64,000 nt of DNA from Polytrichum commune. Lineage: Eukaryota; Streptophyta; Polytrichopsida; Polytrichales; Polytrichaceae. Within the stretch, counting starts at the first letter, position 1, and each line of letters opens with the position of its first letter. Where the stretch lies: contig OX485809.1 of the NCBI GenBank assembly GCA_950295325.1, positions 27,962,001-28,026,000 on the forward strand. Direction: 5' to 3'. The position numbers and the translations under genes are program-made. A model generated the notes under the pieces. The model saw only the letters and a program-made list of their open reading frames with translations. It was not told the origin of the DNA and made no database searches. Below are positions 10,022-62,329 of this stretch, one piece after another.

Positions 10022-10163
10022 GTGTTTGTTTAAGCCAAGGATGACCCTCCCAAATGAGCACAAGCACACTCCAAAGCGACAACACAAAGGCTCCAAAGCA
10101 AAGCCGCACACTCCAAAGCAAAGACACAAAGGCTCCAAAACCGAACACAAAAGCTTCAAAGCG

Positions 10164-16877: not shown

Positions 16878-16882
16878 CTTAC

Positions 16883-17074
16883 TATTGGGAAATGAGAGGA
16901 GAAAGCAAAGACATCAGCGTAGAAAGGTAGAACACAACACACAAGGATTGCATACAATGGAGAGAGTGATTAGCTCCTCCCCTTATGCCTTTATTTATAT
17001 GTGTAGGTTAGGACCAGCCGTGACAACCCATATGGGACAATGTCACCGATGCAACCTAACACTACCTTCCAATA
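16883..17074 (-). repeat. 3' LTR of the copia element
   Basis: 192 bp, identical by eye to 22419-22610. On the minus strand it contains ATATAAATAA (17000-16991), a good TATA box. The end of gag-pol, with its stop codon (17062-17064), runs 13 bp into this LTR. Confidence 0.95.
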
Positions 17075-20000: not shown

Positions 20001-21126
20001 CGCCCAACATCTCGCCGTTGCTCGCCCTCACCACGCATCCCAACGAGTTGAAATGCACTTTCAAACCCCTCGAAATGAGCTTGCTCACCGAAAGCAAGTT
20101 GGAATGCATTTTCGGCACATGAAGCACGTCGTGCATTCTAATGCTCCGCACACGGCCTTTCACGCGTGTTTCCACTAGTATGGAGCCTTTGCCTACGGCA
20201 TCTACCATGCCGTTATCACCCATAAACACTTTGCGACCCGTGACGGGTTCGTAAGTGTCAAAAAAATGCTTATGTGGTGTCATGTGTTGCGAGGCCCCCG
20301 AATCCACGATCCATCTAGTGGCGGACGTTTTAGACGCCCCATCTCTCGCTACAAATGCAAAATCATCACTCGCCCTTGCCATGTTTGCGTTCCCCTTGCG
20401 TTTCATTCGACAATTACGAGCAATGTGGCCCAACTTACCACAATTGTAGCACCTCGGGCCGTCGCCGCGCCTCTCGTTGTTGTCGAACGCTCGATGTTGG
20501 CGGGACAACATGGCCGCATCGTCGCCTTGAGGCTCCTTCTCCTTCCTCTTGGACACCTCGTGCATGAGACGTGCGGTGATGAAGTCCAACTTGAGCTCCG
20601 AAATGGGGCGCGTCTCCAATGCGGTGATCAAATGCTCGAACGAGGGCGGTAGGCTATCGAGCAAGGTCATGACCACGTCCTCGTCCTTCATAGGCACCTC
20701 CAAGCACGTGAGTTGGTCCGCAAGAGATTTTACCTTGTTGATGTGCGTGAGGATGTCGTCGCCCTCGTCCATCTTGATGGTGAAGAACTTGCGCCTTATG
20801 AACAAGATGTTGGACAAGCTTTTGGTTTCGTGGATGTTGCACAAGGTCTTCCACGCTTCCGCGGGTCCCTTGCATCCTTTGATGTGCGCCAACTCCTTGT
20901 CCACCAAACTCATGGCAATGATGGCGAAGGCTTTCTTGCATCGTCGCTCGTACGCCTTCTTGACTTCGTCGCTCGCCGTAGAAGGCGGTGGCAACTCCGA
21001 ACCATCCACGATCTCCCAAAGATCTTTGGTGGACATGGCCATCTCCAATTTAAACTTATAGAGGTTGAAGTTCTCGCCACCGAACTTGTCAACCGATATA
21101 AGTCCATCGTTTTCCCTAGAAGCCAT
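17062..21126 (-). CDS. Copia gag-pol polyprotein
   Basis: A single 1,354-residue frame from the ATG at 21126. The frame is open upstream to 21159, but without an earlier ATG. Order: gag (about 1-220), zinc knuckle CYNCGKLGHIARNC (about 226-239), protease active site DSGAS (about 275), integrase zinc region HKRLGHL...CEGC (about 413-450), and integrase core with D in HSDVCGP, D in RSDNGGEY and E in NGVAERAN. Reverse transcriptase follows with YVDDLIIL (about 1023), then RNase H with SDADWAG, MEAEY and the ADILTKAL end. The order INT before RT marks Ty1/copia. All catalytic motifs are present and there are no stops. Gag and Pol are fused without a frameshift, as is usual for plant copia elements. 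Confidence 0.97.
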   Translation of the reverse strand: MASRENDGLISVDKFGGENFNLYKFKLEMAMSTKDLWEIVDGSELPPPSTASDEVKKAYERRCKKAFAIIAMSLVDKELAHIKGCKGPAEAWKTLCNIHETKSLSNILFIRRKFFTIKMDEGDDILTHINKVKSLADQLTCLEVPMKDEDVVMTLLDSLPPSFEHLITALETRPISELKLDFITARLMHEVSKRKEKEPQGDDAAMLSRQHRAFDNNERRGDGPRCYNCGKLGHIARNCRMKRKGNANMARASDDFAFVARDGASKTSATRWIVDSGASQHMTPHKHFFDTYEPVTGRKVFMGDNGMVDAVGKGSILVETRVKGRVRSIRMHDVLHVPKMHSNLLSVSKLISRGLKVHFNSLGCVVRASNGEMLGVASLESNLYQLDTNVLNGAETSSLAHSEANSHPLELWHKRLGHLNANSVKMLQSMVSGMDVGAAQGDVHSFACEGCVEGKQARRPFSTDGGTRATKILELVHSDVCGPMKTASIGGARYFLTFIDDFSRKIWVYVLKSKKEVLARFKEWKTLVERQSEHVVKVLRSDNGGEYISKAFDDFLSKHGIARQTSSPYTPQQNGVAERANRTIVEMARSMIHAQRLGHEFWAEAVCNAAYVRNRCPTKAVEGMTPEEAWSGRMPHVSHMRVFGCVAYAKVPDQRRTKLDAKGVKCLFLGYCEGTKAYRLMCLETKKIIKSPDVVFFEDKTHLEDCPSGRVDEVPTVKVDISPKSEAEELEASGDVSEPDEEEPNIEDEWEAEVPAAKSTRSAEASKLNAGKKTATKPPPPPQDGNETIGNSRYPDRPRKPLGEWWKNHIPQPEDDEHANMAMVGEPRNLREAFESSDASEWESAMQEEYESLIANATWELVPLPKGRKAVKCKWVFRTKKDANGVVVRFKARLVAKGCSQVEGVDFGETFAPVAKFNTIRVILAMAAAMGLEIHQMDVKTAFLNGELHVVIYMEQPEGFVQKGREHLVCKLGKSLYGLKQSGRAWYECIHIFFVNKGFTRSHADHSLYVLQTCHYIVIVIIYVDDLIILASNVDVINELKSSLEKEFEMSDLGELHFFLGVHFERDRRTRTITMHQRSYIETILERFGMSDCKPISTPLDTKTSLAKLSEEEYEKHSHEMKDIPYQRAVGSLMYAMVATRPDLAFAVSVVSRFMSQPGPMHWMAVKRIMRYLKGTIDMRLRIGGQHINLKGYSDADWAGDVENRRSTSGYVFFVGDGAVTWNSKRQLTVAQSTMEAEYMAMNRCTREAIWLRQLMEDVGCAQEEATTMMCDNQGSMALAKNPTNHDRSKHIDVQHHFIREKIENNVVELEYCPTQYMVADILTKALVRDRHEMLSEIMGLEYNATSQSGSIGR
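17075..17084 (-). promoter_or_regulatory. Polypurine tract
   Basis: The minus strand reads AAAGTGGGAG directly before the 3' LTR, as expected for the plus-strand primer of reverse transcription. Confidence 0.85.
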
Positions 21127-21240
21127 TTTCAAAGCGAATGCAAGCTCCCACTCACTCAATGTAGTACAAGGGCTTAGAAACCCTCAAGGAAGTTTAGAAA
21201 ATGATTTTAAACTTTGGAATTAATTCAAGGTTCTCACACA

Positions 21241-22190
21241 CTCAAGTCAGCACCTTTCCACTCCAAAGCTAAGCCAAATAACTATATAACCATCAAAAAA
21301 CCACAACTAAGCCTTTTGGAACTCAAAACACCTCAAAGTAAGCATAGAATGGATGGATCTCTCAAGTCAGCACCTTTCCACTCCAAAACTAAGCTTAATA
21401 ACTACATAACCATCAAAAAGCCACACCTAAGCCTTTTGGAACTCAAAACACCTCAAAGTAAGCATAGAATGGATGGATCTCTCAAGTCAGCACCTTTCCA
21501 CTCCAAAACTAAGCTTAATAACTATATAACCATCAAAAAGCCACACCTAAGCCTTTTGGAACTCAAAACACCTCAAAGTAAGCATAGAATGGATGGATCT
21601 CTCAAGTCAGCACCTTTCCACTCCAAAACTAAGCTTAATAACTACATAACCATCAAAAAGCCACACCTAAGCCTTTTGGAACTCAAAACACCTCAAAGTA
21701 AGCATAGAATGGATGGATCTCTCAAGTCAGCACCTTTCCACTCCAAAACTAAGCTTAATAACTACATAACCATCAAAAAGCCACACCTAAGCCTTTTGGA
21801 ACTCAAAACACCTCAAAGTAAGCATAGAATGGATGGATCTCTCAAGTCAGCACCTTTCCACTCCAAAACTAAGCTTAATAACTACATAACCATCAAAAAG
21901 CCACACCTAAGCCTTTTGGAATTCAAAACACCTCAAAGTAAGCATAGAATGGATGGATCTCTTAAGTCAGCACCTTTCCACTCCAAAACTAAGCTTAATA
22001 ACTACATAACCATCAAAAAAGCCACACCTAAGCCTTTTGGAACTCAAAACACCTCAAAGTAAGCATAGAATGGATGGATCTCTCAAGTCAGCACCTTTCC
22101 ACTCCAAAACTAAGCTTAATAACTACATAACCATCAAAAAGCCACAACAAAGCCTTTTGGAACTCTAATCACCTCAAACCCTCAAAATGC
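21241..22190. repeat. 120-bp tandem repeat in the copia leader
   Basis: Eight head-to-tail copies start at 21241, 21361, 21481, 21601, 21721, 21841, 21961 and 22082. The first is somewhat divergent, the seventh has one extra A and the last is partial. Units differ by only a few bases. The array lies between the primer site and gag, in the untranslated leader. As 120 is divisible by three, the opposite strand stays open over most of it (21214-22062), most likely by chance. Confidence 0.95.
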
Positions 22191-22404
22191 GAATCGATCT
22201 CACATAAACACTCAAGATACAATGAACCTCAACCTAAGGTATCCTCCACGCTGGTCCAAGTGTCCAAGAATGCTCCAAGGCGCTCCAAAAATGCTCCAAA
22301 ACTCCAAAACTCCACCAAAAGCTTGAAACACCTTCAAATCGCCTCCGATCAGATCCGACTCTCTCCTACCTCCTCCTAAGCTGATCTCTAAGCTCTAAAG
22401 CAAA

Positions 22405-22418
22405 GTGGGCCCATAACC
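22405..22418 (-). promoter_or_regulatory. Primer binding site for a tRNA-iMet internal fragment
   Basis: Directly inside the 5' LTR the element reads GGTTATGGGCCCAC. The other strand, GTGGGCCCATAACC, equals the anticodon arm of plant initiator tRNA-Met (CAU anticodon included), not its 3' CCA end. Drosophila copia and yeast Ty5 are known to prime from such an internal tRNA-iMet fragment. Confidence 0.85.
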
Positions 22419-22610
22419 TATTGGGAAATGAGAGGAGAAAGCAAAGACATCAGCGTAGAAAGGTAGAACACAACACACAAGGATTGCATACAATGGAGAG
22501 AGTGATTAGCTCCTCCCCTTATGCCTTTATTTATATGTGTAGGTTAGGACCAGCCGTGACAACCCATATGGGACAATGTCACCGATGCAACCTAACACTA
22601 CCTTCCAATA
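22419..22610 (-). repeat. 5' LTR of the copia element
   Basis: 192 bp, identical by eye to the other LTR. It is the promoter copy for transcription toward lower coordinates. Confidence 0.95.
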
Positions 22611-22615
22611 CTTAC

Positions 22616-23500
22616 ACCCTTGAATATCCGGTGCCTTGATGCAGGCTCTGAATGTTTTACCATGACACCTCCCTCATATGGCGACAATTGTTACTCATCT
22701 GCATCTCAGAGAGATCCCAGTCTTATATAATCCCAAGGTGGCAATTCTCCTTCTAGATCGACTAGTAGAACACAAGTGTCTTTGTGATTGTATCTCTGTA
22801 ATGTTGTGACATCTACCATAACTTGGCCCTTTGTGACGTAAATTCTATCTCAAAATTAACTAGTCACATCAAACTGTTCACTGGTTCACATTTCCAAATT
22901 TGAAGTGACATGTACATGTCACTAACAACAACCAAGGTGAATCCAAAAGCCTCCATCCCTGCATATTTTTCCTGACTACCAAAGCTTTGAATGCCTTTTC
23001 ACCTGCGTGGTCAGGCTAATACTTGCATATACCTACTTCGTTTAGGGTAATCCCAACAAATATTTCCATAATTGTCTTATTCCTTACAGGGCACGAGATT
23101 GAGGAAGGTAGAAGTGAAAAGAGAAACTCTCAATCTGTTATGTATGCTCTGTTGGGATTATTGTCTACCAATGTAGGAATGTTGACAATTTAAGCTATTT
23201 CTTTGCGTAAATTGTTTATGATTGTGTTTTGAAATTTTGGGTTGTGTGTACCAAAATTCTTTTATTGGCAGTTGTGGTTGTGGGGCCTTATGCACTAATC
23301 TTCCATTTCAGAAGAGACCTTGAGGTGAAATGAAAGCCATAAACGTGGACAATCCTTCTTTTGGCATAGGATTGCAGCTATGCTAAATTGTCTAATTAGT
23401 AATGGTTATCGTTTGGGGATACATGTTGTCATAACTTTTTGCTGAGAGTATCATTCTTTACTCCAAATAGCATAAATAGTTAGTATGCACACCAAGAATA
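22616..23500. other. Spacer, no gene seen
   Basis: AT-rich unique-looking sequence between the copia element and the first CACTAGTAG foldback element. Confidence 0.4.
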
Positions 23501-34630: not shown

Positions 34631-35300
34631 GGACTTGCCAAGAATTTGTTTTCAGCCAAACAATTAGACAAAGTTGGTGGAGAAATCTGCATCAAAGTTA
34701 GGATATGTGGACCTATGTAAGTCGGGACACATACAAGGTCTACTTACTTCATTATGTACATTGATGATCTTATAAGATATTGCCATGTATACTTAATGAC
34801 ACATAAATCGCAAGCATTTGATAAATTTCTATAAAACAAAAGCTTTGTAGAAAAACCAACAAATCACAAAATTAAAAGAGTAAGGTCATATCAAGGTGGA
34901 GAATATGTGTCCAACGAGTTCAATGATTATTGTCAAAAAGAAGGCATCAAAAGAGAACTTACTACAACCTACATAGCATAACAAACCGGGAAGTAAAAAT
35001 TAAAAAATGGGACAGTGGCTAGAGTAGTTCTATCCATGTTATCCTATTTTTAAATTACCAAAGACATTTTGGGGTGAAGCACTTTAAATTGCAAATTACC
35101 TATAAAATAGAAGTCCTACAAAGGCTATAACAACAAATAAAACTCCTTTTGAAATATGGCATGGAATACAACCAAATTTATCTTATCTTAAAGTTTTTGG
35201 ATGCAAAACTCATGGTTTAATTCACAAGGGATTAAGAAGAAAATTAGACTCACATTCTCTTGAAGCAATCTTCCTAGGCTATTGCGTGATTATAAACTTT
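34631..35300 (+). pseudogene. Decayed copia integrase
   Basis: Continues the split element: GLAKNLFSAKQLDKVGGEI, then YFIMYIDD, RSYQGGEYVSNEFNDYCQKEG (the catalytic D of RSDxGGEY is now Y), and AIFLGYC. Multiple stops. It ends at the truncated gypsy-type LTR. Confidence 0.8.
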
Positions 35301-35579
35301 GAGATAGGAAGTTTCACAAGAAATATTCTAAATCTACTTACTCGTAGATGCGACACATAAATTCATCATAACATAGATATAACTAATATAGAAATTCCTA
35401 CCTCATCAACTTAATGAGATGTAAATCTTGTCACTGTTCTATCAACTTGGACATGGGCAAGTAATGGCCAATTGACCAATATCTTTTAGAATTTACCACA
35501 AATCCTTAACAACTTACCTACTTTCTAATCCTAAGTAAATCTTCACAATACTATTGAATCCACAATTTTAACCATAACA
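35301..35579 (-). repeat. Truncated LTR of Ty3/gypsy-type element (3' LTR)
   Basis: Matches 52300-52575 in the same orientation over about 280 bp (for example CTACTTGCTCGTAGATGCGACACATAAAT with small changes) and lacks the outer 230 bp or so. The next interior bases on the minus strand, AAGTGTGGGGATAA, look like a polypurine tract. Confidence 0.75.
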
Positions 35580-37099: not shown

Positions 37100-37108
37100 G
37101 TGTCGATC
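37100..37108. repeat. MULE target-site duplication, left
   Basis: GTGTCGATC, identical to 47248-47256. Confidence 0.95.
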
Positions 37109-37552
37109 CCCTAACATTACCCAACCCAATGGTCTTAACTCCATCCCGGAGTTCGAGGCATGGCAGAGGTGCGTCAGTAGTACTTTGTCCCAAACCTGGA
37201 CCCAGCCCGGGCCGGAGCTCCAGCAGCCAGCCCCGTGCGTCACCCTGGCCGTCGCCCACGCTGGCATCGGCTGCCCCTGCTCCACGGTGTCAGCCGTTCA
37301 CGCTGGCACCTCCGCCACGCTGTCACCCCAGCCTACGTGTCGGCCGCCCGCCTCCACGTCCGCATGCCCATCCCTTGAGGGTGGCCCATGCCCTTGCATC
37401 ATGCCATGGTGCTCGGTATCACCATGGCCTTCACCCACCCATCCATGCTGGTAACCTAACCGCCCTCGGGGAGCGCGTCATTTCAAACACGCACTCAGCC
37501 ACCCCTAATGATTGTGTGTAATTAACTTGCTCATTCAGTAGAGACTGCAAAT
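37109..37552 (+). repeat. Left terminal inverted repeat of the MULE
   Basis: Inverted copy of 46853-47247, apart from a block of about 48 bp (about 37449-37496) present only here. Differences seen between the copies are all transitions. The pro-rich open frame across it is a by-product of its GC-rich composition. Confidence 0.93.
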
Positions 37553-37732
37553 TTTTGCTGCAATGGAGATTGTTACACGAAGTGATGCGATGTGAGCAAT
37601 GATGCGGACAAGCTATACGGACAAGATCACCTCATTGATCATATCTTTTCAGGATTCCTTTGGTTTCATGCTTTTGATTAATCGTAACATGTGCATTAAC
37701 TAAACAATCTTCATTTTTGTAGCACTGGAATG

Positions 37733-38050
37733 TCTTGCATGTAGTGATGCGACCGCTCCAATGATGTACTCAAGGTATATGTCTAAAACCATTAAGTCGA
37801 GTGCCCACATCGCACACGGTGGTCACAATCACCCTCACTCATTGTGTTTTCCATATTTCTTCTCAGATCTGCAATCAACCATTGCTTCTGTCTTGCATGT
37901 ACTGATGCGAAGCCAACAATGATGTACTGAAGGTATGTGTGTGAAACCACTAAGCCGAGCGCCCTGATCGCACACGGTGGTCACAATCGCCCTCACTCAT
38001 TGTGCTTTCCATATTTCTTATTAGATCTGCAGTCCACCATCGCGCCTCAT
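37733..38050 (+). repeat. Two 158-bp direct repeats upstream of the transposase
   Basis: Copies start TCTTGCATGTA at 37733 and 37891 and share GATGCGA, AATGATGTACT, CGCACACGGTGGTCACAATC and CCCTCACTCATTGTG. Each holds the small palindrome CACAAT...ATTGTG. They lie in the 5' region of the transposase gene and may be regulatory. Confidence 0.8.
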
Positions 38051-38129
38051 TGACTGTAACCAGTTCATTTACTGCTCACTTCTCTTTCATTATGCTCCTC
38101 ATTGCTTCCAGGGTTTAGGGGTTTAGGGT

Positions 38130-40954
38130 ATGCACGAGCAGGTGGAGGTCCTCCGAGTGCTCCACAACGGAACGTCAATGGGATCCTCTGCTGATTTGCC
38201 AACTGAAGTACATGTTGTCCGACATGGAGACCATGGCACTGAACAAACACTTCGCATGCCCTTTGCCGTGGATCCCTCGTATGAGTCTACTTACCGGGAG
38301 GCACACAAAGGGGAGTTTGAGCGGCTCCGCAGTTTCGTTCAGAGACCTGAAGCGGGAACCTTCATGCACACTGATCTATCGTGGGCAAGGCAGATCCGGG
38401 TGAAAGGGAGGAGGACTGACCTCAAGACTCATGCGGCAATTTCGGTTGCGTACATACCTTGGGCAAGAGTCCAGGATTTTGTGAAAGGTGAGGAGGCCTG
38501 CATTGATGCTCCCTGCAAATTTGTTTGCCAAGGCGCTCCATCGAAGGAACAACGAAAACTAGCGTTCCCCCATTGGAACAGCTACTCTGTCGTCATTAGG
38601 TGTGTTTGTAACATGCAATTCGAATTCCATTCTGCATGTTGCAATGTTACAACACTAAAACTTCTTTGTGGCATCTTATACCTCACTCTCCCTTCCACCA
38701 CTTGTTGTCTGCCTCAGGTATCATTGCCAATATGGGCCAAATGACAATGCCTCGCACATACCAGTTGTTACAAAGGATATGTACCAGAAGAAACAAAAAC
38801 TCGATTCCAAGGGCAAATACGTTCCAAATGGAAATGGTCACTCAGGTCCTCGCACATCCACCAGGATGCGAGGATTTGGGCAACGAAGGGGTTGCCAATG
38901 CGGTTTTGTTGTCAAGCGACTGTACCTTAAGCCCTCGGTCGCAGAAATAACGTACCACCAGATGCAGCATGTCAACTTCAAAGGGTTCTTCTGCCATGGT
39001 GCCACAAAGACCGGCCATAAGAGCAGATTCTCTAGCCATCTGTCACCGCATGTTCGGGAATTCATCATGACTCATCTGCGTTTGGGTTTGTCCATCCCGC
39101 AAATAATGGCAAAACATAGGAAACGTTTCCTGGAAATGTGTGAAAGAGGGGACGAGCTCACACGGAACCTCTTCATTTGTGACCAAGACATCCGTAACGT
39201 CGCTGGCCGTCTGGCAATAGAGACCTTCAAACGCGACAACAATGATGCGAAATCTGTTCGTATGTGGGTGCAAGAACATCCCCATCTCGTGTTCTACTAC
39301 AAAGAATCCGGCGTACATGTTCGCGGTGTTATTACACGTGACAACATTTCATTCACGATAGGCATCCAAACAGCTTGGCAACAAGATATGATGCTCAAAC
39401 ACGGACATAAATGTGCTATCTCCATTGATGCCACGTTTGCAACAAATGAAAACAAAGTTTGTTGCTATCATGCTCCATGAATTGTCGTGTTACAGACCGT
39501 CATAGCTACTTGCTTAGCCATAATCCATGTTACAACAATGTTATCTGTAACGTCTATGATCCCCCAGCCTGTAATGTTATTATTTTTCCTTCTTGTGGCA
39601 GTTTCCGCTCTACACCTTGATGGTGTTTGATGATTGGCTAAACGGAGTGCCCGTAGCATACATTATTACTTCTAGTTCCAAGTAACCCAATCTTGAACCA
39701 TGGATAAGGGCGCTCGCCATGAAATTGGCGTCAGTGCAAGAAGATTGGATGCCGAATGCTTTCATTACAGATTGTGCGCAGGCCGAGATCGGAGGGTTGC
39801 AGTCTGTGTGGCCCGGAGTGAAAGTCTTTCTTTGCCTTTGGCATGTCCGTCGTGCATGGTTGAAACAAGCGGTGGCAAAAATTAAAGACCATGCTATCCG
39901 GGCTGGTGTGCTGAAGGGATTGGGTCGTATTATGTACGATACAAAGTGCCCCCATGGAGATGAAATGGGGCCTTGGGCTCTTCGCCAACTGAACGCTCTT
40001 ATGGATAGCTTCCCCATTGTCAACAATTTTTGGGCGTATTTCAACAAACAATGGGCAGACAAGACCCATATGTGGGTTGTGGGGCATCGTAACATGCCTT
40101 ATGCTGGGCAGGACACAAATGCAGCAATTGAAAGCTATCACTCTAACCTTAAAGCCACCTTGCGTGCCTCAAAAGGAAGAGCGCATGGACGTCGGCTGGA
40201 CTGGGTCATATACGAGTTGATAGAGGAAATTCTCTCCCATTATTGGTACCAGGCAATAAGAAAACAATACGGGTTCGTCCCCAACTTGAAACATGAGCAG
40301 TTTGTTATCAATGCAGTTCTCAAAGCGAGAGAAATTCCTGACAATTGTGTCACTCTCCCCATTGCGGATGACGGCTCAGCAATCGTAACCTCCAAGACCA
40401 ACGCAACTAAATAGTATTTTGTGTACAACCCAGACTGTGAGTGGGGTTGCTGTGACTGCGTGTGGGCACTAAAGGGAAACATTTGCAAACATCAGATTAA
40501 AGTCCTCATGATGCTCCATCCTAGCCTTGCAGAGGGAACCATTACACGTTACTGTGGATCCCTTGCAGGCACAACCGAGGGCGGCCGTGGTAACATGTTG
40601 GATCCTGTTCTGCATTTCCCAAATGATTGTTATGATACCGGACCACCAGTGGCCACCCCCACACCAAATCATGCTAATGCCAACCAATGGGTCACACCAT
40701 CTCACGAGGACATCGAAAAACATGTTCGCAACCTTGCAGCAGAGTTCATGGATGCGGCCACGGGTGACACTTTCCTGTTGAAGCACCTCCTAACAGACCT
40801 GCACATTGTAAGGGGGAAGCAACAGACATTGCTTGCTCAGATCAAACATGAGTTGGTGGAGGCATCCCAACCGGACTTGCATTTCTTGCCCAACGACGAT
40901 GGCAGCAACATGTCCCTCAAGCGTAGGAAGGACTTTTTGGAGGAAGGTCGGTAG
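38130..40954 (+). pseudogene. MULE transposase (mudrA-like), two nonsense codons
   Basis: Exons 38130-38599, 38718-39456 and 39602-40954 join in phase through GT/AG introns of 118 and 145 bp, giving about 853 codons. The DDE core has D394 (SIDATF), D460 (FITDCAQAE), the C/H motif LCLWHVRRAW and E580 (TNAAIESYHSNLK). A SWIM zinc motif follows: C687, C689, C698 and H700 in CCDCVWALKGNICKH. An N-terminal C/H-rich part (RGCQCGF...FFCHG) precedes the core. In-frame TAA at 39683-39685 (codon 431) and TAG at 40412-40414 (codon 674) break the protein. The reading frame is otherwise clean. It is a recently dead, or conceivably partly functional, transposase. Confidence 0.9.
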
Positions 40955-41039
40955 ATAAATAATGACAGTCAACCACGTGTTGTAACTTGTGCATGTTACG
41001 ACACACCCCACATGCAGGATGACGTTGCTACACTTAGGG

Positions 41040-41046
41040 TATATAA
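41040..41046 (+). promoter_or_regulatory. TATA box of the 123-codon gene
   Basis: GGGTATATAAGG, 84 bp after the transposase stop and 136 bp before the ATG at 41182. It suggests a separate promoter for the small gene. Confidence 0.65.
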
Positions 41047-41181
41047 GGTCAGGACCTGCCTTCAACGAGACGGGTTCCTTTCTTCCGCACTAGGTCCATA
41101 TGGTTAGGCAACAAGGTGCATTAGCAGTCTCCAACATCTCCCTCTTCCCCTAGCCCGTCATATACCCCATTTTCCCTCACC

Positions 41182-41553
41182 ATGGCACGTTTTGACGTCG
41201 TGCGGGTTGGCGCGTCTGTTTGGAAGTGGCTTTGTAGATGCCCTGATGCCATCGGGCCCGTGCAAGACAGTTCAAGCGACAACGAGTTCTTCACTCCTCC
41301 AACAACGCCTTTGCGTGACGCCGAAGACCTCCGTGTGGCCACCTCCCCGCGATCCCCTTCGGCCCTCACATCCACAGCATGCGGCGTTCAAAGGTTGCTC
41401 TCGCCGGCACAGACTGCTCGACTGCAGCGCCGACATGCAGAGGTTGTGCGGCAACTGACCACCCCACCTCCAGTCGTCACGCCGACCCCACATGGTCCGT
41501 TGAAGGCTTACCAGCGACCGATTAAGGTTTACAGGCCAAGCTGGGCCCTATAG
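41182..41553 (+). CDS. 123-residue protein of unknown function, MULE-encoded
   Basis: Single exon with an excellent start context (TCACCATGGC), a TATA box upstream and a poly(A)-type signal 56 bp after the stop. The product starts MARFDVVRVGASVWKWLCRC. It is rich in Ser, Thr and Pro (SSSDNEFFTPPTTPLRD, TTPPPVVTPTPHGP), with a short basic helix-like stretch LLSPAQTARLQRRHAEVVRQL, and it ends KVYRPSWAL. I recognise no family. It lies between the transposase and the convergent large gene and is intact. It is probably an accessory gene of the element. A disordered regulatory protein is one guess, without proof. Confidence 0.6.
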   Translation: MARFDVVRVGASVWKWLCRCPDAIGPVQDSSSDNEFFTPPTTPLRDAEDLRVATSPRSPSALTSTACGVQRLLSPAQTARLQRRHAEVVRQLTTPPPVVTPTPHGPLKAYQRPIKVYRPSWAL

Positions 41554-41608
41554 TGTCCCGTTCCATGTTACCTCTACCGGACGTAAAGGCTTTCATAAAT
41601 GCATGCTA

Positions 41609-41614
41609 AATAAA
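41609..41614 (+). terminator. Poly(A) signal AATAAA
   Basis: AATAAA in GCTAAATAAACAC, 56 bp past the stop of the 123-codon gene, followed by a T-rich stretch. Confidence 0.55.
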
Positions 41615-42022
41615 CACATTTTGTTTCGTGCACGACTTGTAACATGTTCTGACGTATACATCTCTTTGTTTATGCGAATTGGAAGTCCATACATGTATGA
41701 AGTGCGCATGGCTTGACATATCGCATTGTGAGGGAGAATCGCAACACAAAATTGGCATATCTAGCACATATCTTTTCATGCTTCCGTTACATAGAACATC
41801 ACATGCTAGATTGCAATTGGCTAAATAGAAGGGGGCAATGTTAATACATGTTACAACTTTTACACATCAGTCGTGGGTGTACGAGACAATGGACCCCTGG
41901 CTTCACGGGTTTGCAGATAGTTTGGAGCATAAATTATCCATAGTTTCACTTTTACAGTTTTACACTATTGGATGTGGATGCCCTAAGTCCCCCAAGTCTT
42001 TTGCATCAATTGTAACAGTAAC

Positions 42023-45000
42023 CTAAGCCAAAATCTGCGATGCATCACCAATGGCGTCCGTGGTTGTGCACCCAGAATGTGGAACTTGGGAGGGTGCCTG
42101 TTGTGTGGACTCCACGACGGCCTCCTGCGCAATCTGGGAAACCTCCACAAATGCATGCACATCCACGTCATGAGGCACCATCGCAGGTCGGGGAGTGCTA
42201 ACGACGTCCATCTCTCCACCCAGATTGCGTGTTGTAACATGGGTAAGAGTGGAGTTGGGGGACACCGAGTCTTGCCACTCAAAATCAAGTTGACTAGGCA
42301 ACTCCTCTAGGCTCTTCTCCTGGGTCATGGGGATGTGAAATGCTGGCCCAATATGCTCCACCGGGCGTTGGACATCCTCCGAGGCGCCTACCTTGCCGAA
42401 AGTGCCTATGCTAGCAGGGCTTTGAGGACATGGCTGCGCAACGTCGCAAGATGTAACATCAGCTGGTGGTGTAGCATGTGCTGGTGGATACACCTCCGAG
42501 TGCTCCAACCGCTCTCGCACAATATTGTCGGCAATGTTGCGAAGATCCTCCATGTACTCAGTATGCTCCAACGAAGGGACCATGACATCTGCCAAGGGGT
42601 GCACAGCCGGGCGTGGTTAATTTTGCGTTTGCGGGAATGGATGTTCAAAGCGGACTACTATGATACAGGGCAAAAGTGTGTTTAATTACCTGGTTTCGCA
42701 AGGACATAGCCAATGTCCAAGTCCTCCCGATGTTGTAACCAACACTCGTAACATGCAAGTGCTGGTGAATGAGTTTTGGGACGATCACGAATTACCCAAG
42801 CGTTCATCCACTCCGACTTGTTGTGAAAGGCCATGTCTTGAAGTGCCCTCAACTGGATGGAGTTGCACCACATACGGAATTCTGCCCACCACTCTGGAGT
42901 GGGATTTTTCAAATCCATCCAAGCAGATTCCATGGCTGCAACCCAATCTTGTTGCGAACCCACCAACCGGGCACCTGCAAACACGAGAAAACCCTCATCT
43001 TTCAAGTAAGATTTTGCCAAATGCCACGCACGGGGACCTTCTCCAACGATTTCTTCAACGAGCTTCAACCATCTCCTAACGTTGTCGACAGAACCACCAC
43101 TATGTGGGTGCGAGATGGGATGGGGCACCATGCTATGGAATTTTAGGAAACAACGAAGGAGAAGCACAGACCATGGCACAGGGTAAGCCCTTACAACATG
43201 GGATTCCTGCAAGAGCAATGCATGCACATGTAAACCCTCAACCACTGAATGATACAAAGGGTAGGAGGGTCTGAAGTTTAGGCTCAAAGGATTAGAAACA
43301 AATGCGGCATAGAAAGGGTGCCATCCCCATGTCGCCTCCAGCAAGCAAGGGTAGTGCTCATCGTCCCACTGTTTCATGGCCCTTGAAACAGCGTCGCTAA
43401 TCTTTGCTTGGCGGTCATCATCCCATTGCTTTCGTTGCTTCATCACCTCACGCGACAAAAATAACTGCTGGATGTAGTGGCACAGGGCAGCAATCTCAGA
43501 TTCTAGTGCGGCATCGTCATCAACCTGGCTCATTGCTGCCACAACAATCTTTGTGATGGGTGGCCCGATGTGTGGTTTAGCCTGCGTCAGCATGGAGCAC
43601 TGATGTGACGATGACATTATGGTACATCCAACGCATGTTACGACTACTAAATGACTGCAGTGCAGGGTGTCCACAGTGGCCCATGTCACAGCAATAGTTG
43701 CACATCTGAAATTTGAATGCACCTTGTCACATTTCTGCATGTTACAAGGCCCTAAACTTGCTAATTTCCTTGTACAATGCACCCTGGCCACAGTGCAGCA
43801 TACTACAAAACAATGTGCAGGTTCAAAATTTCAATGTACAACACCCTAAACCATGTTACAACGCGACCTGCATATATTTATAAGCCAATGCACCAATTGG
43901 ATTGGGAGAAGACACAACGTGTACCTGATGTTTGGGCGAGTAAAATCTGCCATAGGCAGCAAAGAGCCTGTCCATGAACGCCGGGTCATTCTTCCAATTG
44001 TAAACCTCCTCCTCGAACGCATGGAAGTCGCCGCACTCCAAGTCAAATTTCAGCAAACCACATGGCAGCAAATGAAACAAACCTGGGGGTTGAATTGGGG
44101 GCCTCAACGGTGGTTTGGGGATGTCCATCCTCACAGATCCACGGGTTGCCGTTGCGGCTCTCACATAGAACACTTGACGCTCCTTTCGCAGCCCCGAAGC
44201 AATATCAAGATCACCTCTAGAGGTATCCATGGGGGGGCCAGGGGTCACAGGTGGCGTAGGGGCAGCATCTGCAACGGGCGAAGGAGGAGCCACAAGGGCC
44301 CACCTCTCTGGGGATGGGCAACGTGTTGCAATTGGCTTGACACGAATGGGGTGGGGAGGCGGTGCAGGTGCAGAAGGCGTCGGGTTGTGTCTCTTGGGCG
44401 CAGAGTTGAACCGCCGGGTGGAGTGGAAAACCCGATGGCCCTCCTCCATCTGTGCGTGACTTCGTTTCTTCGGCCGAGAAGGGGGAGGTTCAGCTTCATC
44501 AGTGCCGTCATCCCCTAGGTCCACGAAATCTTCCGATGGGGGTGGTGGAGTATGTCGCATGGGAGACCGTTGCTGTCTAGGGGTTGGTTGCGACCCACCC
44601 TCCGTCCAGGAATGTGAAGCCCTCAATCGCTCGATTGTGGGCAACATGAACCGCCGCACCTGCACTCTCGCTCCAGTGGGGGGGTAAGTAGGGTCCTTCA
44701 GCTCGGGGTTAAGCTCCAACCACATCGCATTGTCTTGCAAGTTGTCCCACACCAAGCGCTCACCTCGTTGCAATGCCGCTTTCAGGTCTTTACCTTGTTT
44801 GGCCGTCTTGAGGTTGGGGTAGACAGGGAGCTCCAGCTTTGTGCCACTTCGGTCCACGGGTCCACATGTGCAACCCCCCAGCCTATGATCCGTCAAGCGC
44901 AACTTGCTTGGGAAAGATGCTCTGCAGTAGACGCACAACCAGTCATCCCTAGATTTCTGCCCATCCCGACATCGATTGCGAGTACATTCGAGCTTGAGCT

Positions 45001-45112
45001 TGATGTACACGCGCCTCCTGACGCTCTGCTCCACCCAACCTTGTGAATCTCTATTCACAAAATACGTGACCTCGTCCTCTTCGGGCAGGGGCGTTTCTCC
45101 CTCGGCATCCAT
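42023..45112 (-). CDS. 881-residue zinc-finger protein, MULE-encoded, novel
   Basis: Three exons join in perfect phase on the minus strand: 45112-43925, 43581-42690 and 42588-42023. The introns are 343 and 101 bp (GTACAC...ACGCAG and GTAATT...TGGCAG). The start is the ATG in AATATGGATGCC. The protein has an acidic start and a C2HC zinc finger (C60, C63, H76, C81; spacing 2, 12, 4) with extra Cys at 43, 48 and 83. A long Pro-rich, probably disordered middle follows, with a nuclear-localisation-like RPKKR. A predicted helical, Trp-rich core comes next (about 397-690, with two KQWDD motifs and KNPTPEWWAEFRMW), then an acidic low-complexity tail. There are no stops over 881 codons, although the element's transposase is dead. 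I know no family for it. Its place, convergent with the transposase, is that of mudrB in MuDR. An element regulator or anti-silencing factor is my inference. Confidence 0.82.
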
Positions 45113-45344
45113 ATTCTGCACAGCACAATGTAAGTCAATGGCCCAAAATAATGCATACTGAGGTGCCTAGATGAAGGAGGGGGGGTGGCAGTTTGAGGCG
45201 CGGGGAAGAGGGATGAATTTGCTGGGTTGCTGAGAGGAGTGTCCCTCCCTGGGAGGAATTGCGCCAACGGCCATGGCCAGCAACTCTACAATGTGCGTGA
45301 GGAATTTTTCTGAACCATTAGTATGGTGTACCTTAACATCACTA

Positions 45345-46030
45345 TAGCTGAAACCGCCTGCACTAAATCACCCTGTAACCAGCAACAGTTCATTGAGATC
45401 CATATTCCCGAGCCTCCTTGCGAGGCAAGTGCCCACAACACTATGTAAGGTAACTTAAAACCCTCAACCCTCAAGCGCGTGCTCTAAATCACCCCAAAAC
45501 CCTAAACACTCCTTGCAGACCCATATTCCAGAGCCTCCATGCGTGGCAAATGGCATACAAAACGTTGTATGCTGCCGCAAAAGAACCAGGCGCCCGAAAC
45601 CGCCTATGCGAAATCACCCTAAACCCTAAAACAAACGTTGCAGATCGTATTGCAGAGCCTCACTGAAAGTGCCTTCCCCACACTATGTAAGCCTTCGCAA
45701 AACACCCAAAAGTCCGAAATCGCCTGGTAAATCACCCTCACCCACTAACACTCCTCCCAGATCCTATTGCGGAGCGTCCATGGTCGGCAAGTGGCATCCC
45801 CACACTCTGTATGCCTAGCCAATACACTAGAACGCCCTAACCCGCCAGCCCTATATCACCCTCAGACACTAACAGTCCTTGCAGATCATGTTGTTTTGCC
45901 TCCCTGCGAGGCAAAAACCATCCCCACACTCTGTATGCCTAGGAAAAACAACAAAACGCCCTAAACCGCCTGACCCAAATCACTCCCACCCACTACAACT
46001 CCTTCCAGATCCTGCTGCGTCCACAATGTA
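45345..46030. repeat. Degenerate 122-bp tandem array upstream of the large gene
   Basis: About six diverged copies spaced 120-126 bp. Each has AAATCACCCY, ACTCCTTGCAGATC, GAGCCTCCATGCG.GGCAA and CCACACT.TGTATGCCT. It lies between the right TIR and the start codon of the 881-residue gene. The block ATCACCCTCAC(C/T)CA also occurs in the 158-bp repeats at the other end of the element. Confidence 0.75.
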
Positions 46031-46852
46031 GTGCCTCGACCCTAAATCAAGTGTCGCTTTCATTGACAAAACCACCCTAAACACCTCAAACCAGCGACAA
46101 CCCATGCCACAAGCATTCCTAAACCCTATGCAACCAGTAGCAAACTGCCCCAAGACGACCATAAGCACTACCTAACAATACCTCCACAAACCACAAGGAA
46201 ACCCTAACACTACATAAACAGATAACAAACACTGCCACATGCAAACAGTAAAGAAGAGAAAGGTGCAGCAAAAAGATAGGAAGGGCAGTCATGTTACAAC
46301 ATGGTAAGTGATGTTTGGATGGTGTATGCCCCTTGTAACCACTGGCGGAGGATGTTGCGCTCCTGCAGCTACGATCCTTGTGCGGCGAAATGGCAGTCGT
46401 CTTTGCTTTTTCCTGCTCACAAAGGGAAGCATGCAAACATAAGAAGATTGAAGGGAATATCATTGCAGCAATCATAATTTACATAATGCGTTCATGCCAT
46501 GTGTAACATGAGTGGCATGATTGAAAAACCCCAAAACCAAGTAAAGTGAGTGAGTGGCAATCGTCAAAACATAAGATCTTCCAAGGCACATCGCAAGACA
46601 TCATCATGTTGGCTTGCCCACACTCCTAAACCCTAAACCAGGACCATGCAGGAAATGATTCAACTTGGCAACTCACTCAGAAGTTACAATCAGTGGGAAA
46701 CGATGGTTGATTGGAAGTTTGGAAGCCTAAATATTAATTGATGTCACTCACCTTCATTGTAACCACCTGTTCGAAGAGCAGCAGTCTGGCTGTGATCATC
46801 CGCCGCAAGTCCTTCACTCCATGATTGTTGCTGAGGCAGCTAAACCCTGAAC
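46031..46852. other. Right subterminal region of the MULE
   Basis: Non-coding. It contains two of the dispersed motifs (46290, 46503) and several AAACCCTAAA telobox-like sites. No gene seen. Confidence 0.5.
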
Positions 46853-47247
46853 ACAATTTCGAGTCTGTAATGAATGAGCAGGTTACACACAATGATCAAG
46901 GGTGGCTGAATGGATGGGTGGGTGAAGGCCATGGCGATACCGAGCACCATGGCATGATGCAAGGGCATGGGCCACCCTCGAGGGATGGGCATGCGGACGT
47001 GGAGGCGGGCGGCCGACACGTAGGTTGGGGTGACAACGTGGCGGAGGTGCCAGCGTGGACGGCTGACACCGTGGAGCAGGGGCAGCCGATGCCAGCGTGG
47101 GCGACGGCCAGGGTGGCGCACGGGGCTGGCTGCTGGAGCTCCGGCCCGGGCTGGGTCCAGGTTTGGGACAAAGTACTACTGACGCACCTCTGCCATGCCT
47201 CGAACTCCGGGATGGAGTTAAGACCATTGGGTTGGGTAATGTTAGGG
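46853..47247 (-). repeat. Right terminal inverted repeat of the MULE
   Basis: About 395 bp, inverted copy of the left end. By analogy with MuDR the TIR may hold the promoter of the minus-strand gene, though its start codon lies 1.7 kb inside. Confidence 0.93.
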
Positions 47248-47256
47248 GTGTCGATC
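47248..47256. repeat. MULE target-site duplication, right
   Basis: GTGTCGATC, identical to 37100-37108. The following GATCTTGCCGCA continues the interrupted host repeat, as at 49122-49138. Confidence 0.95.
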
Positions 47257-48123
47257 TTGCCGCACTCGGCATTGGATCCCATGCCCTTGCCACTTGGCTA
47301 GCTTCTTATTCCACAGACCCTCCGTACTACAAAAATTGTCATGATCATGTAAATACACTCTTCAAGCCCTCCACACAACAACATCATTCTCGTGAATTCT
47401 GTAAACATCAAAAATATGCATTCCACTCATTGCATACATTGACAGTCGAGCGACACATCATTCCAAGCACATCTCATGTCTGGATCTTGTGTCAGCCCTT
47501 TCGCGCGGCTCTATTGTCATATCCTAAGCACTCTTCAAACCCTCAATACAACACCACCATCTTCGTGGATATTGTAAACATCAAAAGGATACATCCCACT
47601 TCTTGCACACCTTGACATTCTAGCGACACATCATTCGAAGCACATCTCTGCTTGAAACTTGTGTCGACCCTTTCACTCTGCTCTAATGTCATATCCCAGG
47701 CACTTCTTAAGCCCTCAACACAACACCACCATCATCGTGGTACTATGTGAGGCCAAACCACCCACCCTTAAGTGTCCTAGTCCGGGTGAGGGAATGGGTA
47801 TCACATTCGTTTCGCATAGCTCCCTCTTACCAACTTCGTTAGAAGTCATTACATTTCTCATTAATTCGTACACACCAATTTATTCCATAACAAGATTACA
47901 AGTGTTAAGAAACACTCTTATCTATCATGGCGTTATTCATGTGCTCAAGGACAATCCCACACTCAACCACACCTCTAATGAGCTAAGTCTTTTCATTTTT
48001 GTTTGAAACCAACACTATGTATCCACCTAATTTACTACGCTACAATTTAGTCTAGTCTAATTGCCCCTTAGTAAGCCTTGGTCCCAACCCTTAATCAGAT
48101 TATGGTCTCAACCTTAATTCACT

Positions 48124-48452
48124 TCTGTCTCGGCCTAATCCAGCTTCTGCTCCAGCCTTGATTCACTTCTGGTCTCAGCCTAGTCCAGCTTCTGCTCCAG
48201 CCTTTAATCAACCTCTGTCTCGGCCTAGTCCAGCTTCTGCTCCAGCCTTAATTCACTTATGGTCTCGGCCTAATCCAGCTTCTGCTCCAGCCTTAATTCA
48301 CTTCTGGTCTCGGCCTAATCCAACTTATGCTCCAGCCTTAATTCACTTCTGGTCTCGGCCTAATCCAGCTTCTGCTCCAGACTTAATTCACTTCTGGTCT
48401 CGGCCTAGTCCAACTTCTGCTCCAGCCTTAATTCACTTCTGGTCTCGGCCTA
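48124..48452 (+). repeat. 45-bp minisatellite
   Basis: About seven units of the form GTCTCGGCCTAATCCAGC/TTCTGCTCCAGCC/TTAATTCACTTCTG. Because 45 is divisible by three, a repetitive frame (RPNPASAPALIHFWS) stays open. I do not regard it as a gene. Confidence 0.9.
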
Positions 48453-48550
48453 AGTACCTACCTTAGCTACTCTAATTACTATTCTCTAAGTTCCCTCTAA
48501 TTACTATTCTCTAAGTTCCATCTAATCAACTCTATTCTATGTCACCCTCC

Positions 48551-51500: not shown

Positions 51501-52575
51501 GACATTATGATAATGCAAATCAAAATCAAATTTCAGAATATTAGAAGTCCTTCTAAATTATTTTGAATGCCTTCCGATTTTGACCGTGATTAAATAACCT
51601 AATCACAAATCATCTCCCAAAATTTCAACTCTATCCCATTTTCTATCTAAAAATTATGGTTTTTTTTACTCTGCAGCTCTCAGAAAAATTTCAGAACAGT
51701 GTAGCTCCTTTTGACTTACTCAAAATATCTTAAAATTTTAACCATCATTAGAAAAACTAATCACAAAGCATCTCTCAAAAATTTATATCTATCCCATTTT
51801 CTGTCTGAAAGTTATGCCTATTTCAGCGTGCAAATCTAAGAAAACTTGATAATATCATACATATGTCTTACTTACTCTAAATGTCTTCAGATTTTGACAA
51901 TGATCAGAAAAACTAGTTTTATACTACCTTCTAAAATTTCAACCCGTTTTCATTTTCTGACCAAAGTTATGCCCTTTCCAAACCAGACTACTAAAAAGAC
52001 CATACTATGTAACGGCCATCAAGACGTTACCAACTTGGGTCCCAGCAACGGAACCATAAATGTTGGGTACTTTTGACATAAAGGCAAATAACATAAAGAA
52101 AGAGATAATCACGACATACAAACTTAGTAAACAAATGTAGCTTTCACCCTTGTTAAACTCTTAAGGCCGAGGCCTTGATACACAACAACTGGTCATAATT
52201 CTAATCTATCACTCAAATCTATCTTACGTCAACGATCTCTATCCTAAGCACTCGAAGAAGGTGTCGGACCCTTCACCGAGAGCCTTTATTTACTATGAAA
52301 TAAGAAGTTTTACAAGAAATATCCTAAATCTACTTGCTCGTAGATGCGACACATAAATATATTATAATATAGATATGACTAATATAGAAGTTCCTACCTC
52401 ATCAACTTAATGAGGTGTAGGCCTTGTCACTGTTCTATCAACTTAGACATGGGCAAGTAATGGCTAATTGACCAATATCTTCTAGAACTTACCACAAATC
52501 CTTAACAACTTACCTACTTTCTAATCCTAAGTAAATCTTCACAATACTAGTGAATCCACAATTTTAACCATAACA
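51501..52575 (-). mobile_element. Gypsy-type LTR and leader, copy C (minus)
   Basis: LTR 52061-52575 (515 bp, TG...CA), with its leader and primer-site complement to the left (CAGCAACGGAACCATAAA at 52043-52060). It is the likely 5' LTR partner of the truncated LTR at 35301-35579, with which it shares orientation. Its outer edge abuts the copia RT remains at 52576. Confidence 0.75.
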
Positions 52576-59690: not shown

Positions 59691-59956
59691 TAAGTTTCAA
59701 ATCAGATGGGTACTGTATCTACCAACTGTCACAGCTCCCGTTTCACAAACCAGAAACTCGTTGCCATAGAAAATCAAACCATATCTATATCCATGGAGTA
59801 GTGTGTGTACCCGGTGTCACGGATTGAAGTTGAAGCTGTGAGGGACAATCTGAAGAGAAATTGGAGCCGAATGATATATTTCCCATGCTTCTTACGGTCC
59901 CGGGTACAAGTGGAGCAGTAAGATCTCAATTTCGTGTCAGAGTGGAACGTGATGCC

Positions 59957-60427
59957 ATCTCTTTCGAAGATCGAATCATGTGATTTCCTTCACGGGCTGA
60001 ATTAACTTGATGTTACCTCTTTTAAGAATCTAATCCTTTCGAGGATCGAATAATGTGATTTCCTTCACGGGCTGAATTAACATCTTGATGTTACCTCTTT
60101 TAAGAGTCTAATCCTTTCGAGGATCGAATAATGTGATTTCCTTCACGGGCTGAATTAACATCTTGATGTTACCTCTTTTAAGAGTCTAATCCTTTCGAGG
60201 ATCGAATAATGTGATTTCCTTCACGGGCTGAATTAACATCTTGATGTTACCTCTTTTAAGAGTCTAATCCTTTCGAAGATCGAATAATGTGATTTCCTTC
60301 ACAGGCTGAATTAACATCTTGATGTTACCTCTTTTAAGAGTCTAATCCTTTCGAAGATTGAATAATGTGATTTCCTTCACGGGCTGAATTAACATCTTGA
60401 TGTTACCTCTTTTAAGAGTCTAATCCT
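59957..60427. repeat. 78-bp tandem repeat
   Basis: Units begin AATCCTTTCGAGGATCGAAT at 60032, 60110, 60188, 60266 and 60344, exactly 78 bp apart, preceded by one divergent unit at about 59957. Each contains TTCACGGGCTGAATTAAC and GATGTTACCTCTTTTAAG. Units differ by one to three bases. Non-coding. Confidence 0.93.
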
Positions 60428-62329
60428 GACTCTTCCCAGAACGAAGTGAAGTTTAGGGTCATATTCTCACTCCTGAGTGTCAGTACTCTTCACATGAAGA
60501 CCTGCTTTTGCATGTCAGTACTCCTGTAAGGATAGATATTACGGTTATATCAAAAGAATAAAATTACATGGGTGTCATGAGCAATTGATATGGGATTCCA
60601 ATGCACCAACAAAGGGGTCTTATTTGCATTCAACATGCCAAAATTAGAAAGATTCGAAGTTTTCTTCATAACCGATTCAGATCGGTTTGAGACCGGCACC
60701 AGGACATGATGGTAAGGTGGTGGACATATTGTGCATGATTTTGGGATGTTGATTTTGAAATGGTGTTGATTTTAGCATGCTCTACCTTATATTCGACGTG
60801 GTGATTCATGAATGTGAGTTTTGAAACATTATAACATTCCATGAGATGTTAATGGTGTAAGGTAGGCGTCATGCGGTTGCTTTGCTTGGTTCTAAAGCCT
60901 TTAACTAGTTACACAAATCGATGTTTTTATGAGTATATAGATTCTCGTCCCATTCTGAATTTTGCCAAGTGTACCTAACTTATTGTGACATTTTTCATGA
61001 TTTAGGTCTTCCTTCAGTGATATAAGCTACGATGATTGATCTAGTGTGTTTAAATTGGGATGAATCAACAACCAACCTACATGAACACATGTTTTTACTA
61101 TTACCCCCTATGTAGATGTTAAAACCCAAACTTCACTTGAAATGTATTGCTATGCATGTGATTACATGCTTCACCAGGTGCTTAATGACCAATTTCAGTT
61201 TTAAAATTAAATTTCCATGTGGGATGTTAATTCTTGCCACCTAATGTGGTGACGTCACATGGCAATATATTTGAGAACATAACTACTTCAAGGGGAAAAA
61301 AGTAAAAATATTTTTATTTTTATTTATTTAAAAAAAATGAGGTAAGATTCATGTAATGCAGTTGCTTTGCTTGGTCCTAAGGCCTTTGACTAATTATAAA
61401 ATTTGACATTTTACAAGCATACAGATTCCTTTCACATGTTGAAGTTGCCCTCCAAATCTTGGCCAAATACCCCTCCAAATCTTGGCCAAATACCCCTCCA
61501 AATCACAGATTGGTACTTAGTAAGGTAAGCGGGCCAAATTCTGCTATTTATCTTAATCGACCATCTATGTCTAAGTGGTTTCCAGTTAGGCGTGGATCCA
61601 AGAACGGACACCAAAATGGCATTTGTTTAGAAGAGATTGGACTATGTGCTCAAGATTTGGAGAACTTCCTATGAATTCCTACACATTTAGCCTAACATTG
61701 ACTTGCACGCTTATCCTCCTCTTGGTTTAACAATCACGCAATTTTACCTTCTTGATATCTAGGTTAAACATGGATTTGACATCTGCCACAAAACAACAAT
61801 TGACATCATGGGGCATGTCACAATGGAAAACCCAAGCACCCCAACACTACTGGAAATCACATTTGATGCTCTCGAGCATGCCTTTCTCGCTAAGATGAAC
61901 AACCTTTTCCGCCAAGAACTTTCTCAACTGTAAATGTGAATTGTACGTGAAGCAGCCATTGACACCACCCTCTCACAAAATTATTGTTGCTTATTGCACC
62001 TCAAATCATAGACTCGCCATCAACCCTTTTTTTTATTTTTTTTATTTTTAGAAGTAGTGGGTTTGGTTACATGTTGAGTTCAAAATTAGTCAAGGTGGCA
62101 AGCATAAGATTTTTGTGGAGTTTGGGGTGGCTATACTTAGATAAATCAAAGGGAGAATTTGGCGAGTGCATAGAACCTGTGTGTCAATTTGGGTGGTAAT
62201 TTCTAATTGTACATGGAAGAAATCCAAGGCTACATACATGCTTTGAGAAGGTGAATAATGACCTCATTTAAAAATAAGAAGTAGCCCCATACTCATATTC
62301 ACATTCTTCAAGTGGCCTCACAAACCACA
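60428..62329. other. AT-rich spacer, no gene seen
   Basis: Only a 23-bp doublet (CCTCCAAATCTTGGCCAAATA, twice at about 61450-61500) and T-rich runs were noticed. Confidence 0.4.

Follow-up and report, generated by a model that had tools for sequence, protein, structure and literature searches.

A dispersed, family-specific word and its candidate zinc-finger reader in MULE-type transposons of Polytrichum commune

Why does one transposable element of Polytrichum commune carry the same eight-base word, CATGTTAC, again and again along its length, and what might read it? The element, a Mutator-like element (MULE) that we call E0, lies in a stretch of 64,000 nucleotides from contig OX485809.1 (positions 27,962,001 to 28,026,000; hereafter the window) and carries, beside a transposase gene, a gene for an accessory protein with a C2HC zinc finger. 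An earlier inspection of the letters alone (the sequence-only reading) took the word for part of a system like that of the VANC proteins of Arabidopsis VANDAL elements. Comparison with related copies and sister families makes us lean towards a reading in which the accessory protein recognizes the word via its finger and relieves the silencing of its own family's copies. The word is element-specific, conserved, mostly non-coding and replaced in sister families, as a VANC-like system would have it, whereas the anti-silencing part of the earlier claim is unsupported by a C-to-T footprint.

The word, counted as CATGTTAC or GTAACATG, occurs 18 times in the window. Sixteen sites fall inside E0 (37684-46510), exactly the number first claimed for the 10.1-kb element, and two outside it (12771 and 30991), where a single one had been claimed for the remaining 54 kb. 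One hundred dinucleotide shuffles of the whole window gave a mean of 2.45 sites and a maximum of 9. Across the 407.8 Mb of the genome the word has 18,001 sites versus 15,809 for the reversed pattern, a rate of 0.44 per 10 kb (∼ 0.45 expected in 10.1 kb) as against 16 in E0, so the motif is not equally frequent elsewhere. The longer form CATGTTACRA (R, purine) matches 13 of the 16 E0 sites, which are listed here with their retention, where noted, among the 16 aligned copies described below:

37684..37691, minus strand: motif site, 5' region of the transposase gene
38608..38615, minus strand: motif site, transposase intron 1, kept in 14/16
39526..39533, plus strand: motif site, transposase intron 2
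40089..40096, minus strand: motif site, transposase coding, private to E0
40590..40597, minus strand: motif site, transposase coding, kept in 12/16
40992..40999, plus strand: motif site, between transposase and small open reading frame (ORF)
41564..41571, plus strand: motif site, spacer
41639..41646, minus strand: motif site, spacer
41847..41854, plus strand: motif site, spacer, kept in 13/16
42234..42241, minus strand: motif site, accessory exon 3
42748..42755, minus strand: motif site, accessory exon 2, kept in 11/16
43634..43641, plus strand: motif site, accessory intron 1
43738..43745, plus strand: motif site, accessory intron 1
43852..43859, plus strand: motif site, accessory intron 1
46290..46297, plus strand: motif site, accessory 5' region, kept in 12/16
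46503..46510, minus strand: motif site, accessory 5' region, kept in 6/16

On the exon model twelve of these are non-coding, three of them within one 343-bp intron, and four coding; both the twelve and the three had been correctly called from the letters.

E0 belongs to a family (A) that we sampled through 16 further loci, chosen by identity (96% to 59%) among 136 pieces that matched the accessory exon (n = 17 with E0). CATGTTAC occurs 9–18 times in 16 of the 17 loci and three times in L018, whose nearest transposase among the matches listed lies 14 kb beyond the end of the 10-kb cut (C1:29516182); L018 was counted among the 17 loci and left out of the 16-copy alignment. Ranked among all 8-mers in the other 16 loci, the word is first in 11, tied in one and second in four, and in two of these four the overlapping ATGTTACA ranks ahead. 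It stays even as identity in the accessory exon drops to 59% across the family, far below the transposase, a 242-residue exon piece of which keeps 82–96% identity in 39 other full-length matches. The individual sites are conserved beyond their surroundings: in the 16-copy alignment, with the 97% twin E1 left out, 56 of 132 comparisons of the 12 non-coding E0 sites with 14 other copies show identity (0.424) versus 1,545 of 35,440 (0.044) for other non-coding 8-mers, a value reached by none of 5,000 random sets, the copies being related and the comparisons hence not independent. For the four coding sites the figures are 22 of 56 versus 12,888 of 74,705, and 150 of 5,000 random sets reached as much. 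The 217 sites of the family fall at 66 alignment places, 31 of them occupied in one copy only, which reflects either newly arisen sites or some misplacement by the alignment. The motif is both gained and retained within family A, and these comparisons support the view that it is element-specific and kept by selection.

The form of the sites bears on simpler origins. Among 181 distinct instances there is little information beyond CATGTTAC plus R and A, and the near-absence of information outside CATGTTACRA indicates that the sites are not copied flanks. Position 3 is the most tolerant (C and G variants at 44 and 51 sites versus 217). The sites lie in both orientations (87 and 130), which argues against an RNA-level signal and rules out a splice-site relic. 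An origin of the words as a side effect of tandem duplication or base composition is scarcely credible. Motif-bearing 31-bp tandem repeats do occur in accessory intron 1 of L017, L013 and L019, with five, three and two sites respectively at 31-bp spacing before the start of accessory exon 2 (placement by eye), but counts survive the removal of sites with like flanks, which rules out a tandem-repeat artefact, and base composition is ruled out by the reversed word, found 15 times versus 217 for CATGTTAC in 160,788 bases of the same copies.

Is the word a property of this family or of such elements in general? Sister loci were collected as six with 47–51% transposase identity, then seven more plus two extensions, 13 non-A loci in all. 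Eleven of the 13 carry a dense word of their own, never CATGTTAC, which is rare or missing in the sister families. The word of family B is CAGTGTCAC (L039+L021 and L022; repeated in the close relative L040 and in L041), that of family C TGTTCTRC (L024; repeated in the close relative L044 and in L045), that of family D TGTCMTTC (L025 and L026+L047; repeated in L046) and that of family E TGTAGTGC (L043). As the words of B to E were found as the most enriched in the same loci, independent support lies in the repeats just named. Each of the five words contains TGT, with family-specific bases after it. In sites per 10 kb, home versus the other four families, A has 12.9 versus 0–1.7, B 14.0 versus 0–1.7, C 21.7 versus 1.2–2.8, D 19.0 versus 0.8–2.6 and E 13.7 versus 0–0.6. 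Foreign words reach six per copy (five E words in L013; five D and three E in L020; six C in L025). In L039+L021 all 17 AGTGTCAC sites lie within inverted repeats at 2588-13410 of the 14.5-kb stretch. At about 2684-2850 of L023, which is B-like, short repeats of a TGTAACACTGA-like word, intermediate by eye between the A and B words, were also noted.

This family-by-family difference bears on a further alternative, namely that a host DNA-binding protein (an activator, silencer or chromatin factor) recognizes each family's word. Host factors can bind short words, and CCCTAAAC, a telobox-like word that we take to be a known plant host site and a possible host-factor site here, is also enriched in family A (nine in E0, 2–14 in the 16 loci other than L018). 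A separate host factor would however be required for each of five related families, and the difference of words by element family, with retention plus gain within a family, would be left unexplained; we regard a host reader as very unlikely.

A candidate reader is encoded by the elements themselves. The accessory gene of E0 lies on the minus strand, convergent with the transposase gene, and comprises three exons (881 residues) with introns of 343 and 101 bp:

43925..45112, minus strand: accessory zinc-finger gene, exon 1
44870..44935, minus strand: C2HC zinc finger CVYCRASFPSKLRLTDHRLGGC, the proposed DNA reader
43582..43924, minus strand: accessory intron 1, 343 bp, with three motif sites
42690..43581, minus strand: accessory gene, exon 2
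42023..42588, minus strand: accessory gene, exon 3

The 881-residue model is supported: exons 1 and 2 have ratios of non-synonymous to synonymous rates (dN/dS) of 0.14–0.38 in all 15 comparisons, and in exon 3 it is the modelled frame in which the proportion of non-synonymous differences lies below that of synonymous ones. L013 has three stops in the modelled exon 3 frame. The protein matched no PDB sequence at E up to 10.

All five families encode one and the same type of accessory protein with a C2HC finger (CVYCRASFPSKLRLTDHRLGGC in A, CIYCGQNDFSNKMMLNRHRFIDGC in B, CIHCRESGKDKNTISHHRMFNMC in C, CIHCKESHKDKNTTSYHRMFKLC in D and CRYCHMDFSDKNALSYHRHKDQC in E), followed each time by a YP motif, and a family D query matches accessory genes adjoining both C and D transposases. 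The finger changes little among family A copies and a great deal from one family to another: its 22 residues are 17–20/22 identical to E0 in 15 copies, with no differences in E1, while the 240 residues after it are 42–75% identical in those copies. A Ulp1-type domain (PF02902, Peptidase_C48) scores above the cut-off in the C and D proteins and falls below it in E (17.8 versus 20.7 bits); the B frame of L041 gave no Pfam match to it, despite a like-looking stretch by eye. DUF1985 was found neither in the 881-residue protein at E up to 1 nor in the tested accessory pieces of B, C, D and E, and because of this we do not file the protein as VANC; a genome search for DUF1985 gave no matches either, but control genomes gave none, so genome-wide absence is not implied. 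In the finger tree and the transposase tree alike, A, B and C+D form groups of their own, and neither tree parts C cleanly from D; family E is present in the finger tree only. Two finger-bearing frames lie within the one E-family locus. An isolated homologue of the finger protein (L027, C3:22243500-22250499; 499-residue open frame) has two motif sites and no enrichment, and might be a domesticated host gene.

We suggest the following mechanism. CATGTTAC(RA) would be the recognition word of family A, and the accessory protein would read it, most likely via its N-terminal C2HC zinc-finger domain; this reading would mark every family A copy along most of its length. The bound protein would then most likely relieve host silencing of the family's copies, through loss of DNA methylation or repressive chromatin. 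The Ulp1-type domain of C and D, together with the lower-scoring match in E, suggests that taking SUMO off a silencing factor may have been the ancestral way of achieving this. With diverged fingers and diverged words, each sister family would free only itself.

The alternative named from the outset is that the transposase itself binds the dispersed word, forming or guiding a transposition complex, while the accessory protein does another job. Its evaluation requires the anatomy of E0:

37109..47247: MULE-type element, family A copy E0, 10,139 bp (from its inverted arms, target-site duplication and copies of its terminal repeats elsewhere)
37100..37108: left target-site duplication GTGTCGATC, read from sequence
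47248..47256: right target-site duplication GTGTCGATC, read from sequence
37109..37457, plus strand: left terminal inverted repeat (TIR), without CATGTTAC
46899..47247, minus strand: right TIR, without CATGTTAC
38129..38599, plus strand: transposase exon 1, boundaries by eye
38718..39459, plus strand: transposase exon 2, boundaries by eye
39602..40954, plus strand: transposase exon 3, weak MULE-domain match, two in-frame stops
41182..41553, plus strand: small ORF of 123 residues (third gene), under purifying selection in most copies

The transposases of A, B and C+D do differ in step with the words, and the TIR tip GGGTAATGTTAGGG contains ATGTTA, six bases of the word, although in E2 one end reads AATATTA at the tip. 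Against a transposase reader, the sites run throughout the whole element rather than gathering at its tips: in five mapped elements the terminal 350 bp hold no site, and the outermost sites lie 518–1,577 bp from the ends. Eleven elements resembling miniature inverted-repeat transposable elements (MITEs), with the same outer 51 bp, have no motif site in ∼ 4.3 kb versus ∼ 5.5 expected at family A density, and eight of the 11 have perfect 9-bp duplications. As the terminal 350 bp and the MITEs are without sites, the word is evidently not needed by the transposase at the tips. The alternative is thereby weakened; it keeps some standing because transposase and accessory protein travel together, and we consider it unlikely. 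The accessory protein rather than the transposase is, judged from these comparisons, probably the reader.

The MITE-like elements themselves (L028–L038 and further places) are 342–365 bp long, carry the outer 51 bp of the TIR without the motif, and often have GGATAACATTA in place of CCCTAACATTA at one end. The TIR arms of E0 are 97% complementary over about 350 bp each. Perfect 9-bp duplications flank E0, E2, E3 and E4, while E1 (L001/L002), the closest relative of E0 (97%), has none at its ends. The MULE transposase domain (PF10551) scores under its 27.6-bit cut-off in both E0 (21.9 bits, E 2e-4) and its relative E3 (22.1 bits), and was not found at E 0.01 in the tested transposase pieces of B, C and D, which are homologous to the family A transposase at 47–51% identity. 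The 123-residue ORF has dN/dS of 0.12–0.58 in 14 of 15 comparisons and 0.68 in L017, stops in L009, L015 and L017, and no family match at cut-off in a Pfam scan.

If the accessory protein is the reader, what does binding achieve? It might serve transposition or transcription of its own element, in the manner of En/Spm TnpA or a self-activator. The sequence evidence is common to such a role and to anti-silencing, and there is no methylation footprint near the motif. The sites, however, are spread over the element as a whole, through introns and spacer too, and not only beside ends or promoters, and words that are peculiar to a family and placed in non-coding DNA and in tandem repeats of introns are the pattern reported for VANC (PMC5735166). 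A role confined to the element's own transposition or transcription thus seems improbable, a little more so than a transposase reader. Given an accessory protein that reads the word, analogy makes anti-silencing quite probably its effect.

A number of observations weigh against self-addressed anti-silencing by the accessory protein. C-to-T changes at CG are not depleted within 150 bp of the motif (E0/E1, 0.051 near versus 0.038 far), and CG transitions are more frequent near the motif in five of six copy pairs, the exception being the nearly identical pair E3/E4 (0/466 near versus 3/1,366 far); the test is a weak one because sites near the motif are more often non-coding. In the five pairs with the higher rate near the motif, CG changes exceed those at CHH (H: A, C or T), which suggests that the copies underwent methylation in the course of time, the surroundings of the motif included. 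They were probably methylated there for much of their history, as VANC-type elements would be too when silenced. The family A protein has no reliable Pfam domain, and the Ulp1 domain, the proposed effector part, was not seen in it with Pfam; zinc-finger matches of accessory proteins in Pfam are weak and below cut-off, and an AlphaFold2 single-sequence fold of residues 1–170 was uninformative (predicted local distance difference test score, pLDDT, 38). Because the transposase and accessory trees group alike, the sequences cannot tell which protein reads the word. The E0 transposase is broken by in-frame stops at 39683 and 40412, and accessory exon 1 has a stop in five of 15 relatives. The family E word comes from a single locus, and the B-like L023 and L042 have weak B-like words and no clear word of their own. 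The L043 cut was made around the finger gene and includes no transposase, the nearest among the matches listed lying ∼ 7 kb outside (C2:581212; 41% to that of A), so that E is called an element family by nearness.

Other features of the window lie outside this question. Direct repeats of 290 bp, 92% alike and 17 kb apart (35290-35579 and 52286-52575), flank E0 and are perhaps the ends of an older element into which it nested. A Copia element at 16882-22617 (1,373-residue open frame, 200-bp terminal direct repeats 99% alike) is very young and contains a 120-bp tandem repeat at 21121-22261; further tandem repeats have units of 45 bp (48037-48498) and 78 bp (59928-60505). The window also has a cupin (germin-like) frame and a weak match to a homeobox. 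The genome has 38 DHC_N2 (dynein heavy chain) matches at eight places; flowering plants are not known to have axonemal dyneins, so these matches point to a host that is probably an alga or a land plant whose sperm are flagellate. The homeobox match, the cupin frame and seven large contigs of 42–78 Mb are in keeping with a plant of bryophyte grade.

En/Spm TnpA and similar element-encoded proteins bind repeated subterminal words clustered near the ends. E0 resembles that arrangement in that it codes for a protein of its own and repeats a short word many times, but here the words extend through introns, spacer and coding DNA, and the terminal 350 bp have none. The closer likeness is to VANDAL/VANC: a MULE whose accessory protein evolves fast next to a transposase that is better conserved, and short family-specific words, mostly non-coding and in intron tandem repeats, that differ between related families. 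Intron tandem repeats carrying words are reported for VANC21 targets and VANA is better conserved than the fast-evolving VANC (PMC5735166), and related VANDAL families use different words, YAGTATTAY and AGTTGTCC/AGTTGTAC (PMC5735166, PMC10398659). Family-specific words together with a relative of the same zinc-finger protein in each family are, on sequence grounds, the VANC pattern on a TIR element. There are differences. VANDAL elements have no TIRs or short degenerate ones, whereas E0 has long ones, though some elements grouped with VANDAL are described as carrying TIRs (PMC6446971); the protein here has a C2HC finger and, in the accessory exons tested, no DUF1985 match; the word is constant across family A despite the divergence of the accessory exon; and the host is outside the flowering plants, with anti-silencing proposed by analogy only.

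Ulp1-carrying MULEs are described as Kaonashi/KIU and from melon, rice and grapevine (PMC13317346, PMC2528002), and a review states that Ulp1-carrying VANC proteins recognize motifs of their own group (PMC13317346). The C and D accessory proteins share the Ulp1 (C48) domain with these, that of E staying below the Pfam cut-off; unlike KIU, which is described as non-TIR, families A and B have TIRs, a zinc finger stands ahead of Ulp1, and A is without Ulp1. Spectre, a TIR MULE of aphids and other invertebrates, has a separate C2H2 zinc-finger ORF beside its transposase (PMC6446971); its host range is different, the available passages mention no dispersed words for it, and the likeness is one of description only. 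A literature search, at the level of titles and abstract openings, returned no TIR MULE described as combining dispersed words with a zinc-finger accessory protein.

In the literature as sampled here, sequence-specific transposon anti-silencing has so far been described from Arabidopsis and other eudicots. We put forward, tentatively and at rather less than even odds, that P. commune harbours a TIR-bearing MULE-type lineage outside the flowering plants with a self-addressing anti-silencing system of its own, in which a C2HC accessory protein, linked in its ancestral form to a SUMO-protease-like domain, has branched into five or more specificities, finger and word forming a readable, co-evolving code. 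The system would have arisen independently of VANC or parted from it at an early date. With five families of different fingers and words in one genome, domain swaps offer a direct test of finger-to-word specificity, and new tools for the targeted removal of DNA methylation are a possible outcome. If true in a plant with flagellate sperm and with another DNA-reading domain, self-recognition by dispersed words would be a general or repeated strategy among such elements.

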